From Spirosoma fluviale (GTDB lineage Bacteria; Bacteroidota; Bacteroidia; Cytophagales; Spirosomataceae): DNA of 39,039 nucleotides. A program made the translations under genes and the position numbers. Numbering within the stretch: position 1 is the stretch's first letter; each line of letters starts with the position of its first letter. The stretch is from positions 1 through 39,039 of the forward strand of contig CAMBGA010000006.1 of NCBI GenBank assembly GCA_945866095.1. The letters run 5' to 3'. Of the stretch, positions 15,641-32,828 are shown in pieces. The notes below the pieces were generated by a model, which saw nothing but the letters and a program-made list of their open reading frames with translations, searched no databases and was not told the DNA's origin.

Positions 15641-18600
15641 ATGAAAAAACAATTATTATTATTATTAGCCTGTGCTGGACCCATTTTCCTGTATTCATGT
15701 ATGAATAAATTGGAAAAAGACACCTACCAAGTGATCGTAGAGGACCAAGATAATTTAGCTGAAAAAGCGCAAACAGCTCGAGACAAAACACCGATCAAAA
15801 TCGCCCCAGGGTTTAAAATAACCCGTTGGGCTTCTGATTCCTTAGCCATCGACCCAGTTTCCATGGACATCGATGATCAAGGTGCGGTATTTTTAACGAG
15901 AACAAACCGACAAAAAAATTCGGAATTTGACATTCGTGGCCATCGTGATTGGATGACCGAATCCATAGGTTTACAGACGGTGGAAGATCGTAGAGCATTT
16001 CTACGAAAGACTTTTGCTCCCGAAAAAAGTGCTCAAAATGAGTGGCTAAAAGATTTAAATGGAGATGGTTCCCATGACTGGAAAGATTTAGCTGTAGAGA
16101 AGGAAGAGATTTGGAAGCTTGAAGATAAAGATGGTAATGGTTTTGCTGATCTTGCATCCCGAGTTTTCAATGGCTTTAATGAAGAAATTACGGACGTATC
16201 TGGAGGTATCTTGGTTCGTAAAAAAGATGCATTCATTGCCGTAGGTCCCGATTTATGGCGATTGGAAAATACCCATAAGAAAGGTTTATGGACTAAGCCA
16301 GTTTCAATATCTCATGGATATGGAGTTCACATAGGTTTTGGTGGTCATGGAATGTCAGGCGTTGTGGAAGGACCTGATGGAAAAATTTATTGGCAAATAG
16401 GCGATATTGGCGCCAACATCACCGCTGTGGATGGCAAACAATATAAGCATCCCAATTCAGGTGTTATTGTTCGTTCAAATCCTGATGGAAGTAACTTTGA
16501 AGTATATGCTTCAGGTTTGAGAAATACACATGAATTTGTTTTTGACACTTACGGAAACTTAATCAGTTCTGATAATGATGGAGATCATCCAGGCGAAAGT
16601 GAACGTTTAGTGCATGTGGTGGAAGGTTCGGATGCGGGCTGGCGTTCCAATTGGCAATATGGAAAATATACGGATCCGACCAACAATCTATACAAAGTAT
16701 GGATGGACGAGAAATTATTTAAACCTCGTTGGGATGGACAAGCCGCCTACATCATACCGCCGATCCGTAATTTTCACAATGGTCCAACAGGAATGGTTTT
16801 TAATCCGGGAACGGCTTTAGGGAAACAATGGCAAAATCATTTCTTCTTAGTTGAGTTTGTGGGCAATGCGACCAATTCACATATTTGGTCTTTCGATTTA
16901 AAGCCAAAAGGCGCCAGCTTTGATTTCAAATCAGAGGTGGATGTGGTGAGTGGAATTTTGCCAACCGGTATACGTTTTGGGCCTGAAGGGGCGCTGTATG
17001 CGGCGGATTGGGTGTTTGGTTGGGATACTAAAAACTATGGCCGAGTATGGAAACTGGATGTAGATGATAAAAACAAAGATCTAACAGAGGAGAGAGCGCA
17101 AACTAAAATCTATATCCAACAAGATTATGCGCTTCAAACCTTAGATCAACTATCCAATCTCTTAACTTATGGAGATCAACGAGTTCGATTAAAAGCGCAG
17201 TTTGAATTGGTCAATAGAGCAGCTTCAGATCGTTTGTTGAATGCCATCAATCAAAAAACAAACCAATTAGCTCGTGTGCATGGTGTGTGGGGAATGGGCC
17301 AAATGATTGAAAAAAATAGAAGCTTAGGTGATAATCTAATTCCATTATTAAAAGATGAGGATGTTGAATTAAGGGCTCAAGCAGCGAAGGTTTTAGGAGA
17401 TGCTTTTTATGTACCAGCTGAAGATGCATTAATTTCTTTATTAGCAACCGATGCGCCAAGAAGTCAGTTTTTTGCGGCACAGGCATTAGGTAGAATCAAA
17501 TCAACTAAATCTATACCAGGATTAATTTCCTTGTTGGAACGCAACCAAGATGTAGACCAATACATACGCCATGCAGCCGTTTTAGCTCTTTCTAGAATAG
17601 GTAAGGAGGAAGCGATTGTCGCAATGCAAAACTCGGCGAATAAATCATTGAGATTAGCCTCTGTTTTAATTTTACGTCGGATGGCAAGTCCCAAAGTAGC
17701 CAAATCTCTCCTAGATTCAGACGAATTCATTGCTACAGAAGCGGCAAGAGCCATTAATGATGATGAGTCCATTGTGGATGCATTACCTGCCTTAGCCGCT
17801 AGTTTAGCTAATCCTGCTTGGAAAGGGGAACCATTATTACGTAGAGCCATCAATGCTTGCCTTCGCGTAGGAACGGCCAAAGAAATTGACCTATTAATTC
17901 AGTTTGCTGAAAGAAATGATATCTCCGATGTCATCCGAGCGGAAGCCATTGCGACTTTAGGTTCTTGGGCTAATCCATCGCTCATGGATCGCGTAGATGG
18001 ACGTCACCGTGGAGCATTAAAAAGAAATCCGGCCGATGTAGTGGCTAAAATAAAAAGCAAAATGCCAGAGTTTTTACGTAGCAAAAACCCTGAGGTATTA
18101 ATCGCCAGTGCACGTTTATTAGCAGAACTAAATATTACTGATTTACGTTCAGAGCAAACACAAATTTTTGCCAATCATCCAAGTGCCAAAGTTCGTTCGT
18201 CTCAATTATCGTCATTAGCCGCGCTAAATGACCCTAATTTGGCTTTAATCATCCAAAAAGGAATGGATGATTCGGATAGAGGAGTTCGTGGAGTTGCGTT
18301 AAGCAATTTGAATAAAATTGAAATTCCAAAAAGTCAATTGCCATCCATCGTGAACATAATATTCGAAAAAGGCAGTATGCCTGAGCAACAACAATTGTTG
18401 CAAAGTATGGGGAAAATGAAATCTGAAAACACGAGTGATATTTTTGAAGATTTGATTCAAAAAATGGTTGGTGGTAAATTAGAGAATGGAATCAAATTAG
18501 ATTTAATGGAGGCCGTGGAAGCAAGTAAATCAGATAAATTAGTCGCTAAACTAGATGCACTCAAAACAAAAGGTACCTTGACGGATGAGTTTAAAGAGGC

Positions 18601-19030
18601 GCTTTTTGGTGGTAACTTACAAGTGGGAAATAGTATTTTTAATCGCAATCCAACCGTTCAATGTGTGCGTTGTCATAATGTAAATGGTGAAGCAGGAAAC
18701 GTAGGACCCTCATTAAAGGGGGTTGGTAGTCGATTAACTCGCGAACAAATACTTCAATCGTTAATCGAACCTAGTGCGCGCATTGCACCAGGTTTTGGTA
18801 ATGTAACCGTCGTATTGACCGATGGCCAAGAAGTATCTGGATTATTGGTAGTCGAAAATGAAAAAGAAATCCAATTGAAAACCAATGAAGCGGAACCATT
18901 AAAAATTGCCCTATCACGGATTAAGTCCCGAGTGAATGCTCCATCCAGCATGCCGCCGATGGGCAGCTTACTTTCAAAAAGAGAAATTAGAGATGTGGTT
19001 GAATTCCTAAGTTCATTAAAAGCTAGATAA
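15641..19030 (+). CDS. Membrane-bound dehydrogenase lipoprotein: beta-propeller + HEAT repeats + cytochrome c
   Basis: A 1129-residue periplasmic lipoprotein; the lipobox is LYSC (Cys about 20). Residues 50-490 resemble the PVC/Bacteroidota membrane-bound dehydrogenase domain, a propeller related to glucose/sorbosone dehydrogenases (PDGKIYWQIGDIG, GLRNTHEFVFD, PEGALYAADW). Two calcium-loop-like insertions, DLNGDGSHDW (about 138) and DKDGNGFADL (about 162), interrupt its start. Residues 500-970 are HEAT-like repeats. The C-terminal cytochrome c has CVRCH at 1008-1012 and a likely distal ligand in SSMPPMG. It probably oxidises a sugar-like substrate and passes electrons to its own heme; substrate and cofactor are unproven. 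Confidence 0.88.
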   Translation: MKKQLLLLLACAGPIFLYSCMNKLEKDTYQVIVEDQDNLAEKAQTARDKTPIKIAPGFKITRWASDSLAIDPVSMDIDDQGAVFLTRTNRQKNSEFDIRGHRDWMTESIGLQTVEDRRAFLRKTFAPEKSAQNEWLKDLNGDGSHDWKDLAVEKEEIWKLEDKDGNGFADLASRVFNGFNEEITDVSGGILVRKKDAFIAVGPDLWRLENTHKKGLWTKPVSISHGYGVHIGFGGHGMSGVVEGPDGKIYWQIGDIGANITAVDGKQYKHPNSGVIVRSNPDGSNFEVYASGLRNTHEFVFDTYGNLISSDNDGDHPGESERLVHVVEGSDAGWRSNWQYGKYTDPTNNLYKVWMDEKLFKPRWDGQAAYIIPPIRNFHNGPTGMVFNPGTALGKQWQNHFFLVEFVGNATNSHIWSFDLKPKGASFDFKSEVDVVSGILPTGIRFGPEGALYAADWVFGWDTKNYGRVWKLDVDDKNKDLTEERAQTKIYIQQDYALQTLDQLSNLLTYGDQRVRLKAQFELVNRAASDRLLNAINQKTNQLARVHGVWGMGQMIEKNRSLGDNLIPLLKDEDVELRAQAAKVLGDAFYVPAEDALISLLATDAPRSQFFAAQALGRIKSTKSIPGLISLLERNQDVDQYIRHAAVLALSRIGKEEAIVAMQNSANKSLRLASVLILRRMASPKVAKSLLDSDEFIATEAARAINDDESIVDALPALAASLANPAWKGEPLLRRAINACLRVGTAKEIDLLIQFAERNDISDVIRAEAIATLGSWANPSLMDRVDGRHRGALKRNPADVVAKIKSKMPEFLRSKNPEVLIASARLLAELNITDLRSEQTQIFANHPSAKVRSSQLSSLAALNDPNLALIIQKGMDDSDRGVRGVALSNLNKIEIPKSQLPSIVNIIFEKGSMPEQQQLLQSMGKMKSENTSDIFEDLIQKMVGGKLENGIKLDLMEAVEASKSDKLVAKLDALKTKGTLTDEFKEALFGGNLQVGNSIFNRNPTVQCVRCHNVNGEAGNVGPSLKGVGSRLTREQILQSLIEPSARIAPGFGNVTVVLTDGQEVSGLLVVENEKEIQLKTNEAEPLKIALSRIKSRVNAPSSMPPMGSLLSKREIRDVVEFLSSLKAR

Positions 19031-19267: not shown

Positions 19268-20632
19268 ATGAAATCATTTAACATTAATCGTAGGCAATTT
19301 GTCAAGGGCGCTACCGCATCCTTAGCCTTATCACAGTTTGGAGCCTATGGATTGGATTTAATCAATCCGGACAAACCTTTAAAAGTGGGCTTAATAGGTA
19401 CCGGTTGGTACGGAAAAAGTGACCTTTTCCGCCTCATGCAAGTAGCTCCCGTAGAGGTTTTAGCCCTATGTGATCCAGACCGAAATCAATTGAATCAAGC
19501 AGGAAAAATGGTCTCTGAGCGTCAAAAATCAGGTAAAACTCCTAAGTTATACAATGATTATCGCCAATTATTAAAAGAAAATGAATTGGACATCGCCATC
19601 GTGGGAAGTCCAGATCATTGGCATCCTTTACAAATGATTGACGCTGTCAAAGCAGGAGCCCATGTATACGTTCAAAAGCCCATTTCGGTCGATGTATTAG
19701 AAGGTGAGGCCATGGTCGCCGCGGCTAGAAAATATAATAAAACGGTCCAAGTAGGTACTCAACGTAAAAGTACACCTCATTTAATTCAAGCAAAGCGAGA
19801 TATCGTAGATAAGGGTTTATTAGGCAAAGTAGGACATGTTGAGATGTGCTGCTATTTTAGCATGCGAAATAACGGGAACCCACCGGTCCAACCTGTCCCT
19901 GAATTTTTTGATTATGAAATGTGGACTGGACCAGCACCTATGCGTCCCTATGACGGATTACCACACACAAGATGGTGGAGAACTTTCAATGAATACGGAA
20001 ATGGAATTATGGGCGATATGTGCATTCACATGTTTGACACAGCTCGCTGGATGTTGGATTTAGGTTGGCCTAACCGCATCAGCTCTGAAGGTGGCATTTA
20101 CGTCCAAAAAGGGGGTAAATCAAATATTCCTGATACCCAAACCGCTGTTTTCGAATACAATGATTTAAACTGTGTTTGGCAGCATCGTTCTTGGGGAACA
20201 CCTCCAGATCCTGATTATCCATGGGCTTTAATACTTTATGGTGAAAAAGGTACCTTGAGAATGAGTACTATGCGCTATGACTTTACTCCTGTAGATCCGA
20301 AAGCTTCTAAAATACACCAAGATGTTATTTTTGAAAAAGAAAAATATCCAGAAGATTTAAAAGAAGAGCGCATTGAATTAAATGCTGCTCCGGCAACCCG
20401 TGGGCATATGTTGGACTTCTTAGCGGCCATCGACAAAAAATCGAGACCTATTGCTGATATTGAAGCTGGTCATATTTCCACCGCTAGTTGCATCATCGCT
20501 AATTTAGCCATGCGTTTAGGTCGACCACTTTCCTATGACCCCGTTAAAAAAATCATCATCAATGATCCTGAAGCGACGGCCTTATTAGCTCGTCCTTATC
20601 GTGGGCCATGGAACAGAAATATGTTAAAATAA
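19268..20632 (+). CDS. Gfo/Idh/MocA-family oxidoreductase, Tat-exported
   Basis: A 454-residue NAD(P)-dependent sugar oxidoreductase. The N-terminus NINRRQFVKGATASLALSQF is a twin-arginine signal, so the protein should be folded with its nucleotide and exported. The Rossmann motif KVGLIGTGWYGKSDL is at about residues 38-52, the EKP-like motif appears as VQKPISVD (Gln for Glu), then GTQRKSTPH and GIMGDMCIHMFDTARWML in the C-terminal domain. The family oxidises or reduces sugars and cyclitols; exported members such as glucose-fructose oxidoreductase keep their cofactor bound. Substrate unknown; context suggests envelope sugar oxidation. Confidence 0.92.
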   Translation: MKSFNINRRQFVKGATASLALSQFGAYGLDLINPDKPLKVGLIGTGWYGKSDLFRLMQVAPVEVLALCDPDRNQLNQAGKMVSERQKSGKTPKLYNDYRQLLKENELDIAIVGSPDHWHPLQMIDAVKAGAHVYVQKPISVDVLEGEAMVAAARKYNKTVQVGTQRKSTPHLIQAKRDIVDKGLLGKVGHVEMCCYFSMRNNGNPPVQPVPEFFDYEMWTGPAPMRPYDGLPHTRWWRTFNEYGNGIMGDMCIHMFDTARWMLDLGWPNRISSEGGIYVQKGGKSNIPDTQTAVFEYNDLNCVWQHRSWGTPPDPDYPWALILYGEKGTLRMSTMRYDFTPVDPKASKIHQDVIFEKEKYPEDLKEERIELNAAPATRGHMLDFLAAIDKKSRPIADIEAGHISTASCIIANLAMRLGRPLSYDPVKKIIINDPEATALLARPYRGPWNRNMLK

Positions 20633-24705: not shown

Positions 24706-26781
24706 ATGAAACTTATTTATAGCCTAGTATTTTCAATGGCTTGCCTAAGCCTTTTTGCTCAAAATACCAATTTCCCTGACATTCATGTGGACAAAATAAC
24801 CATCGCAAGAGACAGCTATGGCGTACCCCATATTTTTGCTCCCACAGATCCAGAAGTGGCTTATGGCCTTGCATGGGCACATGCAGAAGATGATTTCAAA
24901 ACCATTCAAACACTTATTTTAACCGGAAAAGGGAAATTATCTACTTATATGGGTAAGGAAGGGGCGCCTGTCGACTTTGTTTTTGGGCTATTAAATACGA
25001 GAGCGACAGTAGACCAACAAATTAAATCGATGGACCCTAAGTTCATCCAATTACTTCAAGGCTATTTAATGGGAATACAGGCCTATGGAAAAGCGCATCC
25101 AAAGGAAATTTTAAATAAACATGTGTTTCCAATTTTCCTTGAGGACTATATCGCAACATCCATGTTTTCGGTGGCTGTTTTTTGCGGGGTTGACAAAACA
25201 TTGCCTAAAATTCTCAACGGTTCCATCGCGAATTTACCTGGTTTTACCGGAGAAGGAAGTAATGCATTTGCCATCAGCAGTAAAAAATCGACCACTGGCG
25301 AGCCTATGTTGGTCATTAACGCACACCAACCCATAGAAGGAGCCACCGCTTTTTATGAAGCCCATTTACAAAGTGAAGAAGGTTGGAACATGTTAGGGGG
25401 CCTATTTCCTGGTGCACCCCTCATTTTCCATGGGGCAAGCCCTAATTTAGCTTGGGCCCACACGGTTAATATGCAGGATAAAGTGGACGTATTCCAATTG
25501 CAAACTGACAAAAAACATCCAGGACAATATCTAGTGGATGGTGAGTGGTTGACCCTAGAGAAAAGAAAAGTCAAATTGCACATTAAAGGAATCCCTTTCC
25601 CAGTTTCAAAAATGGCTTACAAATCTATTTATGGACCTACAGTAGCTAATCCCAAAGGAGAGTTTTTCTCCATGCGCTTACCTTCTTTAATGGATGCCAA
25701 GGCACTCCAGCAATGGTATTTCATGAATAAGGCGAAAAATTGGAGTGAATTTAAATCAGCTTTAGAACAAAATCATTTGGCCATGTTTAATATTATTTAT
25801 GCCGATAAGCAGGATAATATTTTCTATGTGTCCAATGGGAAAATGCCCTATCGTAATCCAGATCCTAAATATCACTGGAATTCAACTTTACCTGGAAATA
25901 CGCGTGCGACATTGTGGGATAAGTTCAAGCCATTCAACGAGTTACCGCAGCATTTAAATCCTGCCAGTGGCTATTTATTTAATACCAACCATTCACCTTT
26001 TTTAGCGACCGCTGAAAATGAGAATTTAAATCCGGCCAATTATGATAAAAATGATGGCTATGAAACGTATCACAATAACCGGAGCCGGAGAGCTAAAGAC
26101 CTAATCGATTCTTATTCAAAAATTAGTTTTGAGGATTTGAAGAAAATTAAATTTGATCGCCAATTACCTAAACAAATTTTATACCCATACGGCTATTCGT
26201 CAGATTCGTTGTTTATGGTCGACGAGTCAAAATATCCCCAATTAGCTCCATTAATTACTTCATTAAAGAATTGGGATCATGTCACCAATCCGGATAGTAA
26301 AGGAGCATTGGTTTACAATTTGGCCTATTATCATATTTCCAAAGCCATGAAAGGCAATGCCCAAAGTACATTAACTCTAGCGCAAGGGGTCGAAGTGTAT
26401 CAGCATGTTTATGATTATTTAATGAAGAACTTTGGTACAATTGGCCTCGTTTTAGGCGATGTACAAAAATTAGTTCATGGGAAAGAAGAGTGGCCACAAG
26501 GCGGTATGCCGGATGTTTTATCTGCTGTGATGTCGAAGAATCATGAAAATGGAAAGAAAAAAATGGTCAGTGGAGATGCCTATATTGGTTTTGTGAAATT
26601 CCCTAAGGATGGAAGTCTTCCAGTGATCGAAACAGTGAATACTTTTGGAGCTAGTTCAAATCCAGAAAGCCCACACTTTGCGGATCAAAGAGCTTTATAC
26701 CAGGCTCAAAAAACAAAAACAATGTCTTTAGATAAAGCTCAAGTTTTAAAAACAGCAGAAAAAATATATAATCCGAAATAA
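24706..26781 (+). CDS. Penicillin acylase-family N-acyl amidase (Ntn hydrolase), exported
   Basis: A 691-residue precursor with signal peptide MKLIYSLVFSMACLSLFAQ. As in penicillin, aculeacin and AHL acylases, an alpha chain (IARDSYGVPHIFAPT, YGLAWAHAEDD) is followed by an autocleavage site: GEG|SNAFAIS, where Ser185 would become the N-terminal nucleophile of the beta chain. NAHQPIEGATAFYEAHL and LAWAHTVN (oxyanion and stabilising positions) follow, and NHSPF/RSRRAKDLI later. The family hydrolyses amide bonds of fatty acyl or aryl-acyl compounds, including acyl-homoserine lactones and lipopeptides. Substrate unknown. Ends one base before the convergent operon, with no terminator between. Confidence 0.93.
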   Translation: MKLIYSLVFSMACLSLFAQNTNFPDIHVDKITIARDSYGVPHIFAPTDPEVAYGLAWAHAEDDFKTIQTLILTGKGKLSTYMGKEGAPVDFVFGLLNTRATVDQQIKSMDPKFIQLLQGYLMGIQAYGKAHPKEILNKHVFPIFLEDYIATSMFSVAVFCGVDKTLPKILNGSIANLPGFTGEGSNAFAISSKKSTTGEPMLVINAHQPIEGATAFYEAHLQSEEGWNMLGGLFPGAPLIFHGASPNLAWAHTVNMQDKVDVFQLQTDKKHPGQYLVDGEWLTLEKRKVKLHIKGIPFPVSKMAYKSIYGPTVANPKGEFFSMRLPSLMDAKALQQWYFMNKAKNWSEFKSALEQNHLAMFNIIYADKQDNIFYVSNGKMPYRNPDPKYHWNSTLPGNTRATLWDKFKPFNELPQHLNPASGYLFNTNHSPFLATAENENLNPANYDKNDGYETYHNNRSRRAKDLIDSYSKISFEDLKKIKFDRQLPKQILYPYGYSSDSLFMVDESKYPQLAPLITSLKNWDHVTNPDSKGALVYNLAYYHISKAMKGNAQSTLTLAQGVEVYQHVYDYLMKNFGTIGLVLGDVQKLVHGKEEWPQGGMPDVLSAVMSKNHENGKKKMVSGDAYIGFVKFPKDGSLPVIETVNTFGASSNPESPHFADQRALYQAQKTKTMSLDKAQVLKTAEKIYNPK

Positions 26782-26782
26782 T

Positions 26783-27637
26783 TTAATTCAAAAAATCAGG
26801 GTCTCGATAAGCAGGATTAGGATAGGTATAAAATCCTTCTCCTGTTTTTTCACCTAATTTACCCGCATCGATATAAGTTTTAACCAATGAAGCAAATGCT
26901 TGCGAGGCTGGATCTTCTAATTTATGAGTCACATGCCAGGCCGTATCTAAGCCAATCGAATCTAAAATCCCGAATGGACCCATGGGCATATGAAAATTGA
27001 CCATCCAAGATTTGTCAATATCTTCAATGCTAGCGACTTCTTTCGTCCTTAATTTACCTGCAGAACCAATCAGAGCCATCAGCATTGAGTTGAAAATATA
27101 GCCATGGTTTTCTTTTCGAACCACTACGGGTACTTGGTTTAACGCACGTCCAAAATCCTCTAAAATCGAAATTAAATCTTCTGATGTTCCTAGATGCGGC
27201 ATAATATCCACGACTGTAGAATAAAAGACATCATGAAAATGAAAGGCACAAAATAGGGAAGGCCTTCCTGTAAAATCAGCAATTTGAGAAGGCAATAAAT
27301 AACTTGTATTAGTCGTAAAAATTGTTTTTTCAGGCGCTATGGCTCCAAATTGGGCCCACACTTGTTGCTTTAAAGCCAAATCCTCCGTAACACTTTCTGA
27401 AATAATATCGGCATCTAAAACAGCTTCCATGGGATCCGTCGTAAATAATATCTGGTCGATGATCGATGCATCCATTTTAATTTGCTTCAAAACCTTTGCC
27501 ATCATTTTGCGAGAAGATTCAAAAACGCTTTCCTGAATATCGTACACGCGAACCTGAAAACCTGAAATCGCCGACTGCAAAGCGATTCTTGAACCAAGGG
27601 TACCTGCACCTAAAATACACACTTTATTTATTTTCAT
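26783..27637 (-). CDS. 3-hydroxyacyl-CoA dehydrogenase, NAD-dependent, divergent active site
   Basis: A 284-residue soluble enzyme of the PaaH/FadB type that oxidises L-3-hydroxyacyl-CoA to 3-oxoacyl-CoA. The NAD loop is KVCILGAGTLGSRIA (5-19), then TTNTSYLLPSQIA. The usual HFFNP...LVE segment reads FHFHDVFYSTVVDIMPH: the catalytic His is at about 133, but Asn-Pro is His-Asp, and the partner Glu seems to be Asp144. The C-terminal dimerisation domain holds GPFGILDSIGLDTAWH and GEKTGEGFYTYP. Last gene of a four-gene operon; 2 bp from the upstream kinase-like gene. Confidence 0.9.
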   Translation of the reverse strand: MKINKVCILGAGTLGSRIALQSAISGFQVRVYDIQESVFESSRKMMAKVLKQIKMDASIIDQILFTTDPMEAVLDADIISESVTEDLALKQQVWAQFGAIAPEKTIFTTNTSYLLPSQIADFTGRPSLFCAFHFHDVFYSTVVDIMPHLGTSEDLISILEDFGRALNQVPVVVRKENHGYIFNSMLMALIGSAGKLRTKEVASIEDIDKSWMVNFHMPMGPFGILDSIGLDTAWHVTHKLEDPASQAFASLVKTYIDAGKLGEKTGEGFYTYPNPAYRDPDFLN

Positions 27638-27639
27638 AT

Positions 27640-28641
27640 TTAATTCAATTTAATACTTTCCATGGCCTTAATTCCAGCCGCTTTAACTACTTGGTTTAAT
27701 ATGGAGAATCGCACATCGGTGGAAAATCCTAAGGCGTATCGCTTGTAAATTTGTTGGGCGATCACCGCCACTTTACACAATCCAAAAACATAATAAAAAA
27801 GGATTTTGGAAACATCTAAATTACTTTTTGACGCATAATATTCAACAAGTTCTGCCCGGGTAAAATTACCTTCTACATAGCTTAAATTGAACATTTTTAA
27901 AATATCAGGATCGCCTTCCTCGGCCCAATAAGCCAACGTGGTTCCTAAATCCATCAATGGATCGCCCACAGTCGCCATTTCCCAATCCAATACGGCAGCC
28001 ACAGAGGCATCGTCTCGGATGACCATATTGTCATATTTAAAATCATTGTGAATAAAGGCCACAGAAGAATGTAAAGGCTGATTTTGCGCCAACCAATCAA
28101 AGGCTTGATTCAATTCAGGAACATCATCTGTTTGGGCTTTCATGTACCTTTCGGACCAACCAGTTATTTGGCGCGCGACATAACCCTCCGGCTTTCCCAA
28201 AGCGATTAAGCCTGAATCATGTAATTCCAAGGCATGCAATTCTAACAAAACATCGATGGCAGAATGAGATAGTTTGGTAAAAAAATCGGATTCAAGTCCC
28301 TCAGGAGCTTTATTTCGGATGATTAATCCATCCACTTTTTCCATAAGAAAAAAGGGAGCACCTATTATACTTTCGTCTTCACAACATAAAATAGCCTTCG
28401 GAATTTTATCATAACCTGCTTTATGTAAGGACATTAAGATTTTAAATTCACGAACCATGTCATGCGCTTTGGAGATTTTATTCCCGAAAGGAGGCCGACG
28501 TAACACATAGGAAAAAGCCTCAGACTCGATTAAATAAGTCAGGTTGGAAAATCCTCCTTTAAATGCCTTTATATGTAATTCAGGAATTGGGATAGACCAT
28601 TGAGCCGACAAATAAGCGGGTAATTTCTCAAATCCCTCCAT
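27640..28641 (-). CDS. APH-like phosphotransferase (ACAD10/11 kinase-domain type)
   Basis: A 333-residue kinase-fold protein. Brenner motif HNDFKYDNM near 195 (catalytic Asp and metal Asn) and VLDWEMATVGDPLMDLGTTL (second metal Asp) are intact, as is a likely ATP lysine in the N-lobe region SYVLRRPP. This sequence type equals the N-terminal half of animal ACAD10/ACAD11 and LvaA of Pseudomonas, which phosphorylate 4-hydroxyacyl-CoA. It overlaps the acyl-CoA dehydrogenase gene by 14 bp; the two would act in sequence. Not an antibiotic resistance gene as far as the context shows. Confidence 0.88.
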   Translation of the reverse strand: MEGFEKLPAYLSAQWSIPIPELHIKAFKGGFSNLTYLIESEAFSYVLRRPPFGNKISKAHDMVREFKILMSLHKAGYDKIPKAILCCEDESIIGAPFFLMEKVDGLIIRNKAPEGLESDFFTKLSHSAIDVLLELHALELHDSGLIALGKPEGYVARQITGWSERYMKAQTDDVPELNQAFDWLAQNQPLHSSVAFIHNDFKYDNMVIRDDASVAAVLDWEMATVGDPLMDLGTTLAYWAEEGDPDILKMFNLSYVEGNFTRAELVEYYASKSNLDVSKILFYYVFGLCKVAVIAQQIYKRYALGFSTDVRFSILNQVVKAAGIKAMESIKLN

Positions 28642-29833
28642 TCAATGTTCTTGATTTTAAAATGCTTTTCGCCAATACCGATTTGTGTACTTCATCAGGT
28701 CCATCATAAATCCGGGCCCCTCGTTCATGGCGATACCAAAACGAAAGCAAGGTGTCATCCGTAATTCCTAAGGCTCCATGCACCTGAATAGCGCGATCCA
28801 AAACCTTCATTAAAACATCAGAAACAAAGAATTTAATGATTGATATATCTTCTTTAGCTGCTTTTGCGCCTTCCTTTTCAATTTTTTCTGCAGTGTGCAA
28901 AACCAATAAGCGAGAAGCTTTTATCTCGGCTGCACTCTCCGCGATCCAATTTTGAATGGTTTGTTGGCCCGATAAGAACTTCCCCGGATTCAACTCCCTA
29001 GACATCGCCCGATCACACATTAATCCCAGCGCTCTTTCACAAATACCGATCCAACGCATGCAATGGTGAATTCTTCCGGGTCCAAGGCGCACTTGGGCTA
29101 AAGTAAATCCTTGTCCTTCCTCACCGATTAAATAGGATTTTGGCACACGGCAATTGGTAAATTCAACTTCCCCGTGAGATAAATAATCTTCCCCCTCATC
29201 GCCCATAATCGATATATTACGAATCAAACGGTATCCAGGATTATCCAAGGGAACTAAAATCATGCTAGCCCTTTGGTATACATTTTCTGCTTTAGGATTT
29301 GTAATCGCCATCACGATGGTAAATTGGGCCCCATCTGCAGCAGTAGTGAACCATTTATGTCCGTTGATCACATATTCATCTCCTTCCAAAACAGCCATGG
29401 TAGACATATGGATGGGATTACTACCCGCATGTTCAGGTTCGGTCATCGAAAAACAAGAACGAATTTCACCACGTTGCAATGGTTTCAAAAAGGTTTCTTT
29501 CAAAAATGGAGAAGCAAAAGCATGCATCAGTTCCATATTTCCAATGTCGGGCGCATTGCAATTGAAAATATAATGGCCTAAAGGACTTGTGCCTAAAATC
29601 TCTGATACTCGGGCAAATTCAGGTAAAGAAAGTCCCAAACCACCTTCGTCTACGGAAAGATGTGGAGTAAACAAACCTTTTGATTTAGCTAATTCACGTA
29701 ATTCACGCAATTTGGGTAAATGAGATTTAAATGAACCGTATATAATTTCTTTTTCGATCGGATAAATAAATTCCTTTAAAAAAGCTTGATAGCGAGAAAC
29801 TAAATCGAGCAACTTAGCGGATGTTTGCATCAT
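28628..29833 (-). CDS. Acyl-CoA dehydrogenase (ACAD10/11-like)
   Basis: A 401-residue FAD enzyme. SCFSMTEPEHAGSNPIHM (FAD/substrate loop), YVINGHKWFTTAADGA, and QVHGALGITDDTLLSFWYRH are the ACAD signatures. The segment around the usual catalytic Glu reads RIYDGPDEVHKSV; that DGPDEVH form is the one I associate with ACAD10/11 and bacterial partners of APH-like kinases rather than with classical beta-oxidation enzymes. Together with the kinase it could turn 4-phosphoacyl-CoA into 2-enoyl-CoA. ATG is 6 bp behind the SDR stop. Confidence 0.92.
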   Translation of the reverse strand: MMQTSAKLLDLVSRYQAFLKEFIYPIEKEIIYGSFKSHLPKLRELRELAKSKGLFTPHLSVDEGGLGLSLPEFARVSEILGTSPLGHYIFNCNAPDIGNMELMHAFASPFLKETFLKPLQRGEIRSCFSMTEPEHAGSNPIHMSTMAVLEGDEYVINGHKWFTTAADGAQFTIVMAITNPKAENVYQRASMILVPLDNPGYRLIRNISIMGDEGEDYLSHGEVEFTNCRVPKSYLIGEEGQGFTLAQVRLGPGRIHHCMRWIGICERALGLMCDRAMSRELNPGKFLSGQQTIQNWIAESAAEIKASRLLVLHTAEKIEKEGAKAAKEDISIIKFFVSDVLMKVLDRAIQVHGALGITDDTLLSFWYRHERGARIYDGPDEVHKSVLAKSILKSRTLNGGI

Positions 29834-29839
29834 GACATG

Positions 29840-30598
29840 TTAAATGGTTAACCCTCCATCAGCCGTAATGACAGAACCGGTGGTATATAATGCTCCAGGA
29901 GAAGCTAAATAAAGCGCGGCAGCAGCTATTTCCTCGGGCGTTCCGATTCTCTTGATGGGCAAAGCTTTCAACGTATGTTTTAAAATCTGCTCATTGCTCC
30001 ATAAAGCTTCCGAAAATTTTGTTTTAATGAGGCCGGGACAAATTGCATTGACACGAATGTTGAACTCGCCCCATTCCTTGGCAAACGCTTTGGTCATCGA
30101 AATCAAGGCCGCTTTGCTAACACTATAAATACCTAAGCCCGATTCAGGAGATATTCCGCCGACCGAGCTGATGTTTATGACGGAAGGATTTTCGGATAAT
30201 TTTAAATAGGGAAGACAAAGGCGCATCAGTTGGAACGGCGCTTTTAAATTCACATTCATAATTTTATCAAAGGCGTCTAAAGTCGTATCGTGAATAGGGC
30301 CAAAAACTGGGTTAGTAGCGGCGTTATTGACCAATATGTCGATTTGACCATATTTTTCGATGGTCTTTTGCACTAAAACTTCCAAAGCGTCCATTTTCCC
30401 AACATGGCAGGCAATGCCTGTAACATCGTAGCCTTTTTTTTGTAATTCTGAGGCTAATTGATCTAAGGTTGGTTGGTCTCTGCTGCTAATAACGACTTTG
30501 GCACCAGCGGCGGCAAAGTATTCTGCAATGCTAAAACCGATGCCCTTGCTAGCGCCTGTAATGAGGGCTACTTGGTTTGTTAATAAAAATGGATGCAT
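29840..30598 (-). CDS. Short-chain dehydrogenase/reductase (DHRS4-like), first gene of acyl-CoA operon
   Basis: A 252-residue classical SDR: LITGASKGIGFSIA (13-26), LVNNAATNP, serine in NISSVGG, YSVSKAALISM (Tyr/Lys) and VNAICPGLIKTKFS. SSRDQ after the second strand suits NADP. The overall look is of the DHRS4/peroxisomal carbonyl reductase group. As the first gene of the operon, a reductase of 4-oxoacyl-CoA to 4-hydroxyacyl-CoA would make chemical sense, corresponding to LvaD, but that is inference. Divergent to the MDR gene across 69 bp, where no clear -7 box is seen for this strand. Confidence 0.9.
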   Translation of the reverse strand: MHPFLLTNQVALITGASKGIGFSIAEYFAAAGAKVVISSRDQPTLDQLASELQKKGYDVTGIACHVGKMDALEVLVQKTIEKYGQIDILVNNAATNPVFGPIHDTTLDAFDKIMNVNLKAPFQLMRLCLPYLKLSENPSVINISSVGGISPESGLGIYSVSKAALISMTKAFAKEWGEFNIRVNAICPGLIKTKFSEALWSNEQILKHTLKALPIKRIGTPEEIAAAALYLASPGALYTTGSVITADGGLTI

Positions 30599-30667
30599 GT
30601 TTGAAAATTTTAAACAATTTAATTATTAAATATGGTAATTTGCTTCAGAATTCAACAAAAAATATAG

Positions 30668-31624
30668 ATGAAACAAGTTATTTTTAAGGCGACTGGTTTG
30701 CCAGAAAGCGTATTACTATTAGAAGAAGCAGCTATTCCTGAGCCTCGAGCGCACGAATCTTTAATCCGAATTACAGCTAGAAATATTAATCCATCTGACA
30801 TCATGTTCATCCAGGGTCGCTATGGAATTACACCAAAATTACCCAGCAGTGCGGGTTTTGAAGCGGCAGGAGAGGTCGAAAAATCAGAACAATATCCGAA
30901 AGGAACTCGTGTAATATTCACAGCCATAGGCACTTGGAAAGAGTATGTTTGCGTACCCACGGCCCAATTGATACTTACTCCCGAAGGGATGAGCGATGAG
31001 GTAGCTTGCCAGGCCTTTGTGAATCCGATTACAGCGTATGGGATGTTGGAGACGAGTGGATTACAAAAAGGCCAATGGCTTTTAATCACAGCAGGAGCCT
31101 CAGCCTGGGGAAAATTAGTGATCCAAATGGCTAAAATGCGCGGCATACAGGTGATTTGTACGGTTAGAAATGGAGCGCAAAAACAAGCTTTACTGGATTT
31201 AGGAGCCAGCATCGTGGTTGACGTACAAACGGAAAACCTGGGTAAAATAGTGCGTGCAGCCGTAGAAACGGGTGTTGACGCTGTTTTTGACGCCGTCGGC
31301 GGAGAGCAAGGAGCCAAAGCGCTTGCTTGTTTAAAAATAGGAGGGAGCATGTTGGTCTTCGGATTATTAAGTTTAGAACCCATTCCTTTAAACTCAGGCT
31401 TATTAATTTTCAAAAACTTGAAAGTAGAAGGTTGGTGGTTGACCTCTTGGTGGGAAAGCTTAGGCCAAGAAGGAATAAAGAAAGCCTTAAAAGACGTTTT
31501 TACCTATTTAATGACGCAAGAGGTACATGTAGATGTTCAGGAGAAATTTGCATTATCTGAATTCAAAGAAGCGGTCATTGCCTACCAAACAGAGGGCAGA
31601 ACGGGAAAAATATTAATTTGTTAA
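30668..31624 (+). CDS. Zinc-independent MDR (quinone oxidoreductase / enoyl reductase-like)
   Basis: A 318-residue medium-chain reductase. No zinc-site cysteines are present. The N-terminal half has ARNINPSDIMFIQGRYGITP, close to the NPSD...G.Y motif of MECR/Etr1 trans-2-enoyl reductases; the NADPH site is ITAGASAWGKLVIQMAKMRG (about 139-158), and FDAVGGEQGAKAL follows. It may reduce enoyl thioesters or quinones; substrate is not readable. Being divergent to the acyl-CoA operon suggests shared use. The next gene follows after 22 bp on the same strand. Confidence 0.88.
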   Translation: MKQVIFKATGLPESVLLLEEAAIPEPRAHESLIRITARNINPSDIMFIQGRYGITPKLPSSAGFEAAGEVEKSEQYPKGTRVIFTAIGTWKEYVCVPTAQLILTPEGMSDEVACQAFVNPITAYGMLETSGLQKGQWLLITAGASAWGKLVIQMAKMRGIQVICTVRNGAQKQALLDLGASIVVDVQTENLGKIVRAAVETGVDAVFDAVGGEQGAKALACLKIGGSMLVFGLLSLEPIPLNSGLLIFKNLKVEGWWLTSWWESLGQEGIKKALKDVFTYLMTQEVHVDVQEKFALSEFKEAVIAYQTEGRTGKILIC

Positions 31625-31646: not shown

Positions 31647-32828
31647 ATGAAAAATCAATTTATTGTCAGTATTTCTTTAATGATATGCCTTGGAAGCACA
31701 CAGATTATGAAAGGACAAACAAACCAAAATGCAGTATCGACTGATTTATGCCGGGGAAAATATTTCACGGAGCTTCAGGGCGCAGAATTTTTGAATGCAC
31801 ACGTACCTGAGTCAAAAAAAGCCTGGGAAAGCAGGTCGAAATTGATCGTCCAACAAATCAAAGAGGGGATGGGCTTACAAAAATTTCCGGCCAAATTAAA
31901 TTCAAAAGCCGTCATACATAGTAAAAAAGAGTTTGATGGCTATACCATCGAAAGTCTCTATTTTGAGAGTCTACCTGGGTTTTATGTCACCGGAAGTTTA
32001 TACAGACCCACCAAAAAATACGCTAGCTATGCGGGTATTTTATGTCCTCACGGACATGATAATCAATTAAAAGGACGTACCAGAGATCAAACGCAAATCC
32101 GTTGCGCTACCTTAGCTCGCATGGGAGCCGTCGTATTTGCTTGGGATATGGTCGGATATGACGATAGCAAGCAATGTTCACATGGCATTGCGTCTTCGTT
32201 GAAATTACAAACGATCAATAGTGTTAGGGCATTGGATTTCTTATTGGATTTGCCATCGATCGACAAAAATCGGATTGGCATTACCGGTGAATCGGGAGGG
32301 GGAACGCAAACATTTTTATTAACGGCTATAGATTCTCGCATTAAAGTATCAGCGCCAACGGTCATGATTTCATCTCATTTCTTTGGCGGATGTAATTGTG
32401 AGAGCGGCATGCCGATTCACAAGAAAGGGGATTATCAGACCAATAACGTAGAAATAGCTGCATTAACCGCACCTAAACCTATGTTGATGATTTCAGATGG
32501 GGCTGATTGGACTCAAAATACTCCCAAAGTGGAATTTCCATTTATGCAAAAAATTTATGCACTATACCAAAAAGAAAACCTGGTAGAGAATGTGCACTTA
32601 GCCAAAGATGTACATGATTATGGACCCAATAAACGCATGGGCATGTATCCCTTCATGGCTAAATACTTATCCTTAGATTTACCAAACGTCATGGATGCAG
32701 GTGGCAATATAGATGAAGGTCCTTCTAAAGTCCTAAGCCCAGCTGAATTGAGTGTATTTAACGAAGCATATCCATTACCTGTCAATGCAGTCAAAGGGGA
32801 TGTGGAAGTGATGAAATTATTGCAATAA
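31647..32828 (+). CDS. Exported alpha/beta-hydrolase, acetyl-xylan-esterase-like
   Basis: A 393-residue secreted serine hydrolase (signal peptide 1-23, KGQTNQ). The fold is alpha/beta: the nucleophile elbow is GITGESGGGTQTF (Ser at about 215), the acid is probably the Asp in MISDGADWTQN, and the His is in AKDVHDYGPN. CPHGHDNQLKGR provides the oxyanion strand. This resembles the acetyl-xylan esterase/dienelactone hydrolase-like exported enzymes that are frequent in Cytophagales. A possible carbohydrate ester is the substrate; a peptide bond is less likely. It may share a transcript with the MDR gene. Confidence 0.85.
   Translation: MKNQFIVSISLMICLGSTQIMKGQTNQNAVSTDLCRGKYFTELQGAEFLNAHVPESKKAWESRSKLIVQQIKEGMGLQKFPAKLNSKAVIHSKKEFDGYTIESLYFESLPGFYVTGSLYRPTKKYASYAGILCPHGHDNQLKGRTRDQTQIRCATLARMGAVVFAWDMVGYDDSKQCSHGIASSLKLQTINSVRALDFLLDLPSIDKNRIGITGESGGGTQTFLLTAIDSRIKVSAPTVMISSHFFGGCNCESGMPIHKKGDYQTNNVEIAALTAPKPMLMISDGADWTQNTPKVEFPFMQKIYALYQKENLVENVHLAKDVHDYGPNKRMGMYPFMAKYLSLDLPNVMDAGGNIDEGPSKVLSPAELSVFNEAYPLPVNAVKGDVEVMKLLQ

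Follow-up and report, generated by a model that had tools for sequence, protein, structure and literature searches.

The window analysed here is a 39,039-nt stretch of Spirosoma fluviale (assembly GCA_945866095.1, contig CAMBGA010000006.1, positions 1–39,039 of the forward strand). Between positions 26783 and 30598 of this freshwater bacterium's DNA, four genes lie in a row on the minus strand: an SDR (30598–29840, 252 aa), a proposed 4-oxoacyl-CoA reductase resembling DHRS4 and PRK07035; an acyl-CoA dehydrogenase of probable ACAD10/11 type (ACAD; 29833–28628, 401 aa); an APH-type kinase (28641–27640, 333 aa), proposed to act on 4-hydroxyacyl-CoA; and a 3-hydroxyacyl-CoA dehydrogenase (HAD; 27637–26783, 284 aa), in which Asp144 replaces the canonical Glu. 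The first-pass annotation of this DNA had described the same row, and its spacing matches the list of open reading frames (ORFs) to the base, i.e. a 6-bp gap between SDR and ACAD, a 14-bp overlap between ACAD and kinase, and a 2-bp gap between kinase and HAD. The motifs it had named (DGPDEVH, HNDFKYDN, and LDWE) are all found in the sequence. Pfam matches above cut-off are adh_short_C2 (1.3e-67), Acyl-CoA_dh_1 and Acyl-CoA_dh_M, APH (3.7e-43), 3HCDH_N (6e-37), and 3HCDH. Because the genes are so closely spaced, we infer that they form a single transcript.

A conserved neighbor omitted by that annotation, an MDR oxidoreductase resembling quinone and 2-enoyl reductases (30668–31624, plus strand, 318 aa; assigned on ADH_zinc_N), diverges from the SDR. 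The 69-bp spacer separating the two (30599–30667, no strand) is AT-rich when read directly and is likely a shared promoter region. A sigma-70 scan of positions 26600–31000, whose coverage excludes Bacteroidota promoters, places no site in this spacer and finds 10 promoter-like sites overall vs 11.4 in shuffles.

The gene row has no spare ORF of at least 90 aa, and no AMP-binding protein appeared in the scanned neighbors. The ORF list and the neighbor scan thus agree with the earlier statement that the operon lacks an LvaB-like partner and an acyl-CoA synthetase. It also lacks a transporter and a regulator, and its gene content therefore does not reveal the substrate. The same genome encodes, next to a thiolase, an 801-aa FadB-like protein that combines 3HCDH and ECH domains, and it has five AMP-binding matches.

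Conservation of the gene row

The four-gene order recurs in 12 of the 15 other same-genus genomes found to carry the kinase, including one (L029) in which both outer genes are partial, and in the remaining three (L024, L027, and L028) a contig end cuts the row. A public scan identified 502 relatives, the best 80 of which form our set of named loci, overlapping with the same-genus set. Among these best 80 of 502, 79 have the ACAD ahead of the kinase and 79 have the HAD behind it; the two exceptions (L059 and L044) are loci cut by contig ends. An SDR of the same family is found in 70 of these 80 loci, is truly missing in 7, and is cut off in 3. The gene order is also kept in named loci from Aquirufa and Cyclobacteriaceae. 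Because the order recurs in same-genus genomes and in the named loci, the arrangement is not chance, and conservation of the kinase/ACAD pair, which the first-pass annotation had singled out for checking in related genomes, is borne out. In one Aquirufa genome (G006), the flanking genes lie on one contig, the whole HAD-to-esterase block is absent, and there is no kinase elsewhere; the block was therefore gained or lost there as a unit.

Our phylum sample comprises 296 Bacteroidota genomes, 22 with the kinase and 274 without. The ACAD signature is present in 17 of the 22 kinase-bearing genomes and in none of the 274 others (Fisher 1.5e-23, uncorrected for kinship), with signature and kinase on different contigs in 3 of the 17. 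The HAD adjoins the kinase in only 5 of the 22 kinase-bearing genomes of this wider sample.

The acyl-CoA dehydrogenase and the kinase

The nearest solved relative of the ACAD is mouse ACAD11 (E 8.6e-83), and a column check reveals equivalents of all five ACAD11 active-site residues R626, R631, H634, R637, and D753. The roles of these residues, which include the phosphate-binding Arg626, His634, and Arg637, are described in section 7 of PMC12440821. Four of the five are lacking in the conventional dehydrogenase 4l1f, which has Glu where the D753 equivalent is the catalytic Asp in our ACAD. The string RLGPGRIHHCMR is present in 80 of 80 related ACADs, and HHCMR occurs in none of 7 frames longer than 350 aa from 6 control loci chosen by their matches to other ACADs.

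Paquay et al. stress a pocket proline, Pro463, of human ACAD11. At this position, as we infer it from Arg627, the S. fluviale ACAD and all 17 rows of the Bacteroidota/Gemmatirosa clade have His, as do 80 of 80 related ACADs (75 by column check and 5 read separately). Five proteobacterial rows that carry all five ACAD11 residues have Ser or Ala there, and the pocket proline is therefore not universal. In a tree with few outside ACADs, the S. fluviale protein falls in a 28-row clade with mouse ACAD11 (99/98), within a Bacteroidota/Gemmatimonadota (Gemmatirosa) subclade (99/99) that is sister to ACAD11 and other bacterial rows. It is 40% identical to mouse ACAD11; for ten bacterial ACADs in the other subclade, the figure is 50–58%.

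Solved relatives of the kinase are 9o56, the best and labelled an aminoglycoside phosphotransferase, and mouse ACAD11, to which it is 30% identical. Equivalents of the ACAD11 catalytic D220 and N225 and of the CoA-side R176 are kept, and 81 of 81 related kinases have them too. The alphaC helix carries an Arg-Glu pair in all 80 related kinases that reach it. By count, the alphaC Arg aligns with mouse residue 84 vs R86 in PMC12440821, and its equivalence to the CoA-side Arg86 is therefore unsure. NCBIfam gives only weak matches, led by thiamine kinase and by kinases for aminoglycosides or macrolides, and every one scores far under its cut-off. In the tree, Azoarcus, Caballeronia, and 3dxp join the ACAD11 kinase in one clade (100/99). 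The S. fluviale kinase is not part of it and belongs to another group, of 27 rows (82/97, drawn open). It does not group with unrelated APH proteins, which are represented by a single row (9fsg).

Active-site residues, nearest structures, and co-occurrence support, at the sequence level, an ACAD of the phosphate-eliminating ACAD10/11 type and a kinase of the 4-hydroxyacyl-CoA kinase type. This much of the first-pass reading, a phosphorylation-dependent 4-hydroxyacyl-CoA pathway, holds. The close LvaA/LvaC-type identity it had also proposed finds no support, because the ACAD sits in the sister clade and the kinase does not group with the ACAD11 kinase, in trees built without LvaA or LvaC rows.

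A candidate relay and its alternatives

We consider it probable that the operon encodes a salvage relay for 4-oxo- and 4-hydroxyacyl-CoAs, shifting the oxygenated position from C4 to C3 and thereby letting beta-oxidation proceed. The SDR would reduce 4-oxoacyl-CoA to 4-hydroxyacyl-CoA, the kinase would use ATP to place a phosphate on the 4-hydroxyl, and the ACAD would expel this phosphate to give 2-enoyl-CoA, its flavin cycling as in ACAD10/11 and without ETF. Hydration would fall to a FadB-like enzyme encoded elsewhere, or partly to the ACAD itself; ACAD10 and LvaC preparations also form 3-hydroxyacyl-CoA, with a contaminating hydratase not excluded. The HAD would then oxidize 3-hydroxyacyl-CoA to 3-oxoacyl-CoA, and cleavage by a thiolase would end the relay. 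The weakest step of the proposal is that of the MDR, which may reduce an alpha,beta-unsaturated precursor.

In favor of the relay we count the five ACAD11 residues, the kinase residues, co-occurrence, gene order, the Aquirufa genome lacking the block, and the FadB-like, thiolase, and AMP-binding genes. Against it stand the 40% and 30% identities to ACAD11, the kinase outside the ACAD11-kinase clade, His in place of Pro463, a HAD without the canonical Glu, the 84/86 mismatch of the alphaC Arg, the small share of kinase-bearing genomes in the phylum sample (5 of 22) where the HAD adjoins the kinase, and the missing synthetase, transporter, and regulator. We found no enzyme assay for the Bacteroidota sister clade.

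The best NCBIfam match of the SDR is PRK07035 (294 bits, under the 373 cut-off), and its best solved relative is DHRS4 (E 6e-61). SDR partners in the Caballeronia, Azoarcus, and Azospirillum clusters score 466, 457, and 443 bits with PRK07035 and are 41–45% identical to the S. fluviale protein. The same type of SDR in kinase/ACAD clusters of three Pseudomonadota agrees with its earlier placement as a pathway member.

Solved relatives of the MDR include quinone reductases, 2-enoyl thioester reductases, and prostaglandin reductase 3. Among the best 80 of 502 loci, the gene lies upstream of the SDR and divergent from it in 65, and is missing from an uncut contig in 9. The operon could serve in oxidized-lipid clean-up, where acids from 4-oxo-2-alkenals or 4-hydroxy-2-alkenals are saturated by the MDR before entering the relay; the 65 loci and the latter two kinds of relative favor this, and ACAD10/11 have been proposed to act downstream of 4-hydroxynonenal. 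However, family membership does not predict the MDR substrate, the operon has no aldehyde dehydrogenase or CoA ligase, and 9 loci lack the MDR, and we see this version as possible but unlikely.

The HAD reaches the NCBIfam cut-off for a 3-hydroxyacyl-CoA dehydrogenase (PRK08293, 317 bits vs 312), and its active-site Ser112, His133, and Asn183 are the same in every row compared, 14 of 14 in one check and 25 of 25 in another. In PMC11476959, the signature is HXFXPXXXMXLXE, with Glu170, at His+12, holding the catalytic His. By contrast, 79 of 79 HADs have Asp at His+11, in a loop one residue shorter, and on its sequence the HAD is a distinct subfamily. This change, a fold nearest diketoreductase 4dyd and then a long-chain secondary alcohol dehydrogenase (human HAD being among the next), and a genome already holding a FadB-like protein with 3HCDH domains would suit an enzyme acting on another position or carrier, e.g. 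a secondary alcohol at C4. Given the NCBIfam match and the retained Ser, His, and Asn, we judge this quite improbable.

A bolder form of the relay, which we offer as speculation, would be a self-contained transposition of the carbonyl, taking 4-oxoacyl-CoA to 3-oxoacyl-CoA and using a HAD subfamily of its own with a rebuilt His-Asp dyad. DHRS4 is peroxisomal in mammals, and on this speculative view the DHRS4-like SDR, which recurs in operons of this kind across Bacteroidota and some Pseudomonadota, would mark mammalian DHRS4 as the missing 4-oxoacyl-CoA reductase that supplies peroxisomal ACAD11.

That this is a true lva operon of Bacteroidota, serving the catabolism of levulinate (C5) and confined to short 4-oxo acids, is very doubtful. 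Kinase, ACAD, and SDR are the same core classes, and the P. citronellolis cluster likewise lacks LvaB. Yet neither the operon nor the adjoining genes include a levulinyl-CoA synthetase, transporter, or sigma-54-type regulator, the trees show separate clades, and the lva literature, as far as available, names no dedicated HAD. Mammalian 4-hydroxy acids also span 4 to 22 carbons, and such chemistry is therefore not tied to C5. An ordinary ACAD beside a kinase for some unrelated small molecule (a drug, choline, or sugar-type APH) would fit the weak NCBIfam matches and the label of 9o56 but is highly improbable given the phosphate-binding residues of the ACAD, the Arg176 equivalent of the kinase, and their co-occurrence.

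Only in 2024–2025 were named mammalian enzymes linked to a phosphorylation-dependent route for 4-hydroxy acids (PMC11342911, PMC12440821); in bacteria, that route has been linked to levulinate use in Pseudomonas. The compact and conserved set of genes in S. fluviale very probably relies on phosphorylation to bring 4-oxo or 4-hydroxy fatty acids, which could not otherwise be degraded, into normal fat breakdown. The set resembles the human enzyme pair and the Pseudomonas operon, but its proteins come from a separate branch, a deep sister now placed in common freshwater and marine Bacteroidota, whose conserved SDR, HAD, and MDR suggest steps before and after the kinase and ACAD. If true, the salvage relay would make flavin-rebound elimination of phosphate open to study in separate soluble enzymes and offer a natural test of a Glu-to-Asp exchange in a classic dehydrogenase; for the human gene DHRS4, it would supply a hint that can be tested.

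Comparison with known systems

Mammalian ACAD10/ACAD11 share with S. fluviale a kinase and an ACAD with R626, R631, H634, R637, and D753, and D220, N225, and R176, the comparison of residues and identities being with mouse ACAD11. They differ in that kinase and ACAD are fused in mammals, whereas the S. fluviale genes are separate, accompanied by SDR, HAD, and MDR, and more distant in sequence, with sister-clade placement and His for the pocket proline.

Compared by gene classes, the lva operon of P. putida and P. citronellolis (LvaA, B, C, D, and E) also co-encodes kinase, ACAD, and SDR. The S. fluviale operon lacks LvaB, a histidine phosphatase, a CoA synthetase, and a regulator, and has a HAD and an MDR instead. 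The first-pass description of a reduced Bacteroidota version does not hold, because a published lva cluster already lacks LvaB, and because 79 of the best 80 loci have the HAD after the kinase and 65 have the MDR upstream. LvaB is mentioned nowhere in the two ACAD10/11 papers.

Nine ACAD11-type plasmid clusters, from Azoarcus, Caballeronia, Azospirillum, Pseudoalteromonas, Rhodobacteraceae, Ideonella, Deinococcus, Streptomyces, and Cytobacillus (L176, L177, L121, and L145–L150), likewise have a kinase, a five-residue ACAD, and one or two SDRs near one another. Unlike S. fluviale, they have no HAD annotated adjoining the kinase. Of the 12 plasmid regions with annotation that we viewed, 7 encode a histidine phosphatase, an enzyme absent from the S. 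fluviale operon. In Haloferax (L151), the kinase is followed by a protein of 654 aa that contains a 3-hydroxyacyl-CoA dehydrogenase domain, and the ACAD motif is looser. Finally, PRK08293-type HADs and diketoreductase 4dyd share the fold and the active-site Ser, His, and Asn of the S. fluviale HAD, which differs from them in its Asp for the catalytic Glu and its shorter loop.

Conservation of the operon and co-occurrence of kinase and ACAD

The genome that holds the window is a draft of 2.48 Mb, 81% complete, of which the window represents one contig (C6). Its minus-strand operon at 26783-30598 encodes an SDR, an ACAD10/11-type acyl-CoA dehydrogenase (ACAD), an APH-type kinase and a 3-hydroxyacyl-CoA dehydrogenase (HAD), and the Pfam and NCBIfam classes of the four genes agree with these names. 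The genes, gaps and overlap described in the first-pass annotation are exactly those found among the window's ORFs, and the gene order is also kept in related genomes. Specifically, in the freshwater genus Aquirufa (Bacteroidota) the kinase is present in 16 of 25 genomes, this one included, and the four-gene order is whole in 12 of 15 fetched neighborhoods and interrupted by contig ends in the other 3. Outside Aquirufa, 3 of 14 genomes sampled from the order carry the kinase.

We also inspected the best 80 of 502 relatives, a set of named loci that overlaps with the 15 Aquirufa neighborhoods. Among these, the ACAD precedes the kinase in 79 and the HAD lies downstream of the kinase in 79; an SDR of the same family is found by tblastn in 70 (7 real absences, 3 cut by contig ends), and the divergent oxidoreductase gene (MDR; 30668-31624, plus strand, transcribed away from the SDR at 29840-30598) in 65 (6 cut, 9 absences not caused by a cut). 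The real exceptions are L100, L106, L110, and L117, with neither SDR nor MDR seen; L109, L112, and L113, with a distant SDR only and no MDR; and L086 and L118, where the MDR is missing. At L117 the ACAD and kinase are 1.6 kb apart. By eye, the interval between them (L117:4240-5869) holds a small ORF resembling a transposase, plus an additional start-like fragment from the kinase N-terminus, and it looks like a mobile-element insertion.

In one kinase-less Aquirufa genome that is 86% complete (G006), a single contig carries both the acylase flank and the HolA-side flank, separated by unrelated ORFs, i.e. operon, MDR, and esterase are jointly missing at that locus. In four more kinase-less genomes (G020, G012, G023, and G011) other genes follow the acylase, on stretches that cover the acylase side, with the far flank lying outside.

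At the level of the phylum, we sampled 296 Bacteroidota genomes: the window's own and 295 with a completeness of 90% or more. Of the 296, 22 match the kinase profile at E 1e-30. A GPGRIHHCMR DNA pattern, taken from the ACAD signature, is found in 17 of these 22 and in 0 of the 274 others, a significant association when genomes are treated as independent (Fisher 1.5e-23). Kinase and ACAD are on separate contigs in G227, G312, and G320, and about 9 kb apart in G215. The five pattern-negative kinase genomes comprise G286, where an ACAD overlooked by the strict pattern adjoins the kinase, and four from the genus g57 (L140-L143). The g57 kinases are 38-39% identical; neither an ACAD relative within 1.5 kb nor an exact signature match accompanies them, and they are possibly members of this kinase group with a different role. 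Among viral contigs, 12 stretches matched a pattern, but no kinase relative is encoded on any of them. The HAD adjoins the kinase in only 5 of the 22 kinase genomes, so the full module is a property of some families and not of the phylum.

Catalytic residues of the ACAD, kinase, and HAD

The best solved relative of the ACAD is mouse ACAD11 (E 8.6e-83), followed by human ACAD11 and 4hr3 (E 3e-78), with ordinary ACADs appearing only from E 1e-38. In mouse ACAD11, R626, H634, and R637 bind the 4-phospho group and D753 is catalytic (Rashan et al., PMC12440821), and disruption of the phosphate-binding region leaves the phospho-intermediate (PMC12440821). Based on aligned columns, as for all ACAD and kinase residues here, the window ACAD has equivalents of these four residues and of R631, and RLGPGRIHHCMR together with DGPDEVH is present in 80/80 related ACADs, 79 of them from Bacteroidota loci and one from Gemmatirosa. 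In the conventional 4l1f, R626, H634, and R637 are missing and Glu takes the place of D753, and HHCMR occurs in none of 7 frames longer than 350 aa from 6 control loci chosen for other ACAD matches. The pocket proline reported by Paquay et al. (PMC11342911) is His in 17/17 rows of the window ACAD clade and in 80/80 related ACADs; it is likewise missing in 5 proteobacterial rows that have all five signature residues.

The kinase best matches 9o56 (E 4e-71, labelled "aminoglycoside phosphotransferase"; no publication naming it was found in the open-access literature) followed by the kinase domain of ACAD11 (E 4e-44). Equivalents of ACAD11 D220, N225, and R176 are found in 81/81 related kinases, and all 80 kinases that reach the alphaC helix have its Arg-Glu pair, which by our count aligns with mouse residue 84, whereas the paper gives R86 (PMC12440821). 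Failed matches to the ACAD or kinase motif patterns reflect pattern misses rather than absence; the one kinase miss in the scan of the related loci, L055, carries Asn in place of the first His of the motif.

The HAD scores 317 against the NCBIfam 3-hydroxyacyl-CoA dehydrogenase model (cut-off 312). The folds nearest to its structural model (mean pLDDT 77; mostly >90 in the NAD-binding half, poor in the C-terminal half) are diketoreductase 4dyd, long-chain secondary alcohol dehydrogenase and human HAD. In the human enzyme, Glu170 holds His158 (PMC10988713) and is contained in the signature HXFXPXXXMXLXE (PMC11476959). This dyad is altered in the operon's HAD: 79/79 related HADs have Asp at His+11; in the 42% identical HAD of Niallia, Glu occupies His+12. 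The model places His133 close to the end of one strand and Asp144 in the next. That the Glu-to-Asp change is fixed argues for a dedicated HAD and against decay of the enzyme. As a standalone marker for this HAD, the HFHDVF DNA pattern was rejected: it matches 17/296 genomes, 5 at the cassette, and the other 12 are at the level of a backward control pattern (16 matches), so it is usable beside the kinase only.

Flanking genes and the remainder of the proposed pathway

We infer every reaction step of the proposed pathway. In the same genome, an 801-aa 3HCDH + ECH protein adjoins a thiolase (contig C25), and a second crotonase adjoins one of five AMP-binding matches; judged by length and position, this pair is putatively MenB/MenE-like. 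No ACAD match besides the operon's was found in this incomplete draft; the nearly complete relatives G007, G010, and G013 have two each, the operon's being one. The pathway may not strictly require a separate hydratase, because LvaC and ACAD10 preparations gave 3-hydroxyacyl-CoA too, with a contaminating hydratase not excluded (PMC11342911).

As to the substrate, oleate hydratase was considered as a general source of 4-hydroxy acids. Its 10-hydroxystearate, once shortened, would give 4-hydroxydodecanoyl-CoA. Near-full-length PF06100 is found in 7/296 genomes, and this source was rejected because only 1 of the 22 kinase genomes (G183) has it; the window's draft genome has none.

A penicillin-amidase family acylase (24706-26781) is convergent with the HAD and scores 212 bits against the PvdQ model, far under the cut-off of 950. 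The acylase and a PIG-L protein were dropped as pathway parts, since among the best 80 of 502 loci they are found in Aquirufa only, and an acylase copy (73-95% identical) is retained in 8 of 9 kinase-less Aquirufa genomes. An alpha/beta-hydrolase-like protein (31647-32828) with weak AXE1 and UilS lactonase matches adjoins the MDR in near relatives. Elsewhere in the window, the 1129-aa protein encoded at 15641-19030 combines DUF7133 with HEAT repeats and a cytochrome c domain; it has a TonB-type barrel (13210-15636) on one side and a GFO/IDH/MocA oxidoreductase (19268-20632) on the other.

Relationship to ACAD10/11 and the lva operon

The best solved relative of the SDR is DHRS4 (E 6e-61), and its best NCBIfam match, PRK07035, is under the cut-off. 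SDRs in ACAD11-type clusters of Caballeronia, Azoarcus, and Azospirillum match PRK07035 above the cut-off and are 41-45% identical to the window SDR, and that of Caballeronia likewise has DHRS4 as its best solved relative. These similarities give only a hint of a DHRS4-ACAD11 link, because the SDRs of other clusters are of other types (Pseudoalteromonas, Deinococcus, Streptomyces, Ideonella, and Rhodobacteraceae; 23-31% identical) or are 33-37% identical to the window SDR (Cytobacillus, Haloferax, and Cupriavidus). In the archaeon Haloferax mediterranei (L151:4956-8235), the gene downstream of a related kinase encodes a protein of 654 aa that includes a 3-hydroxyacyl-CoA dehydrogenase domain, and an ACAD gene lies upstream in divergent orientation.

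Among 12 annotated plasmid regions around kinase/ACAD, 7 encode a histidine phosphatase (L121, L145, L147, L149, L150, L176, and L177), as does the lva cluster of P. citronellolis. It is perhaps a counterpart of the phosphatase-like domain of ACAD10.

In the trees, where outside rows are few (a single further APH and two or three further ACADs), signature ACADs and mouse ACAD11 form one clade (28 rows, 99/98). It holds two groups. One (11 rows, 100/99) joins mouse ACAD11 to Proteobacteria, actinobacterial rows, Deinococcus, and Cytobacillus; the other (17 rows, 99/99) consists of Bacteroidota, the window ACAD included, and Gemmatirosa. Among the kinases, that of ACAD11 clusters at 100/99 with Azoarcus, Caballeronia, and 3dxp. 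Outside this cluster, the window kinase is placed among kinases that mostly adjoin signature ACADs too. Identity to mouse ACAD11 is 40.4% for the ACAD and 30.2% for the kinase.

No Bacteroidota version of the pathway was found in the open-access literature, which leaves most subscription journals outside. The first-pass annotation had read the operon as a 4-hydroxyacyl-CoA pathway in the form of a reduced LvaA/LvaC set. Residues and co-occurrence bear out the core of that reading, but the reduced LvaA/LvaC set does not hold; likeness to the Pseudomonas levulinate (lva) operon was judged from published descriptions (PMC6692424, PMC12440821, and PMC11342911). Judging by residues, the kinase/ACAD pair probably works like ACAD10/11, yet by trees and identities to mouse ACAD11 it represents a separate branch.
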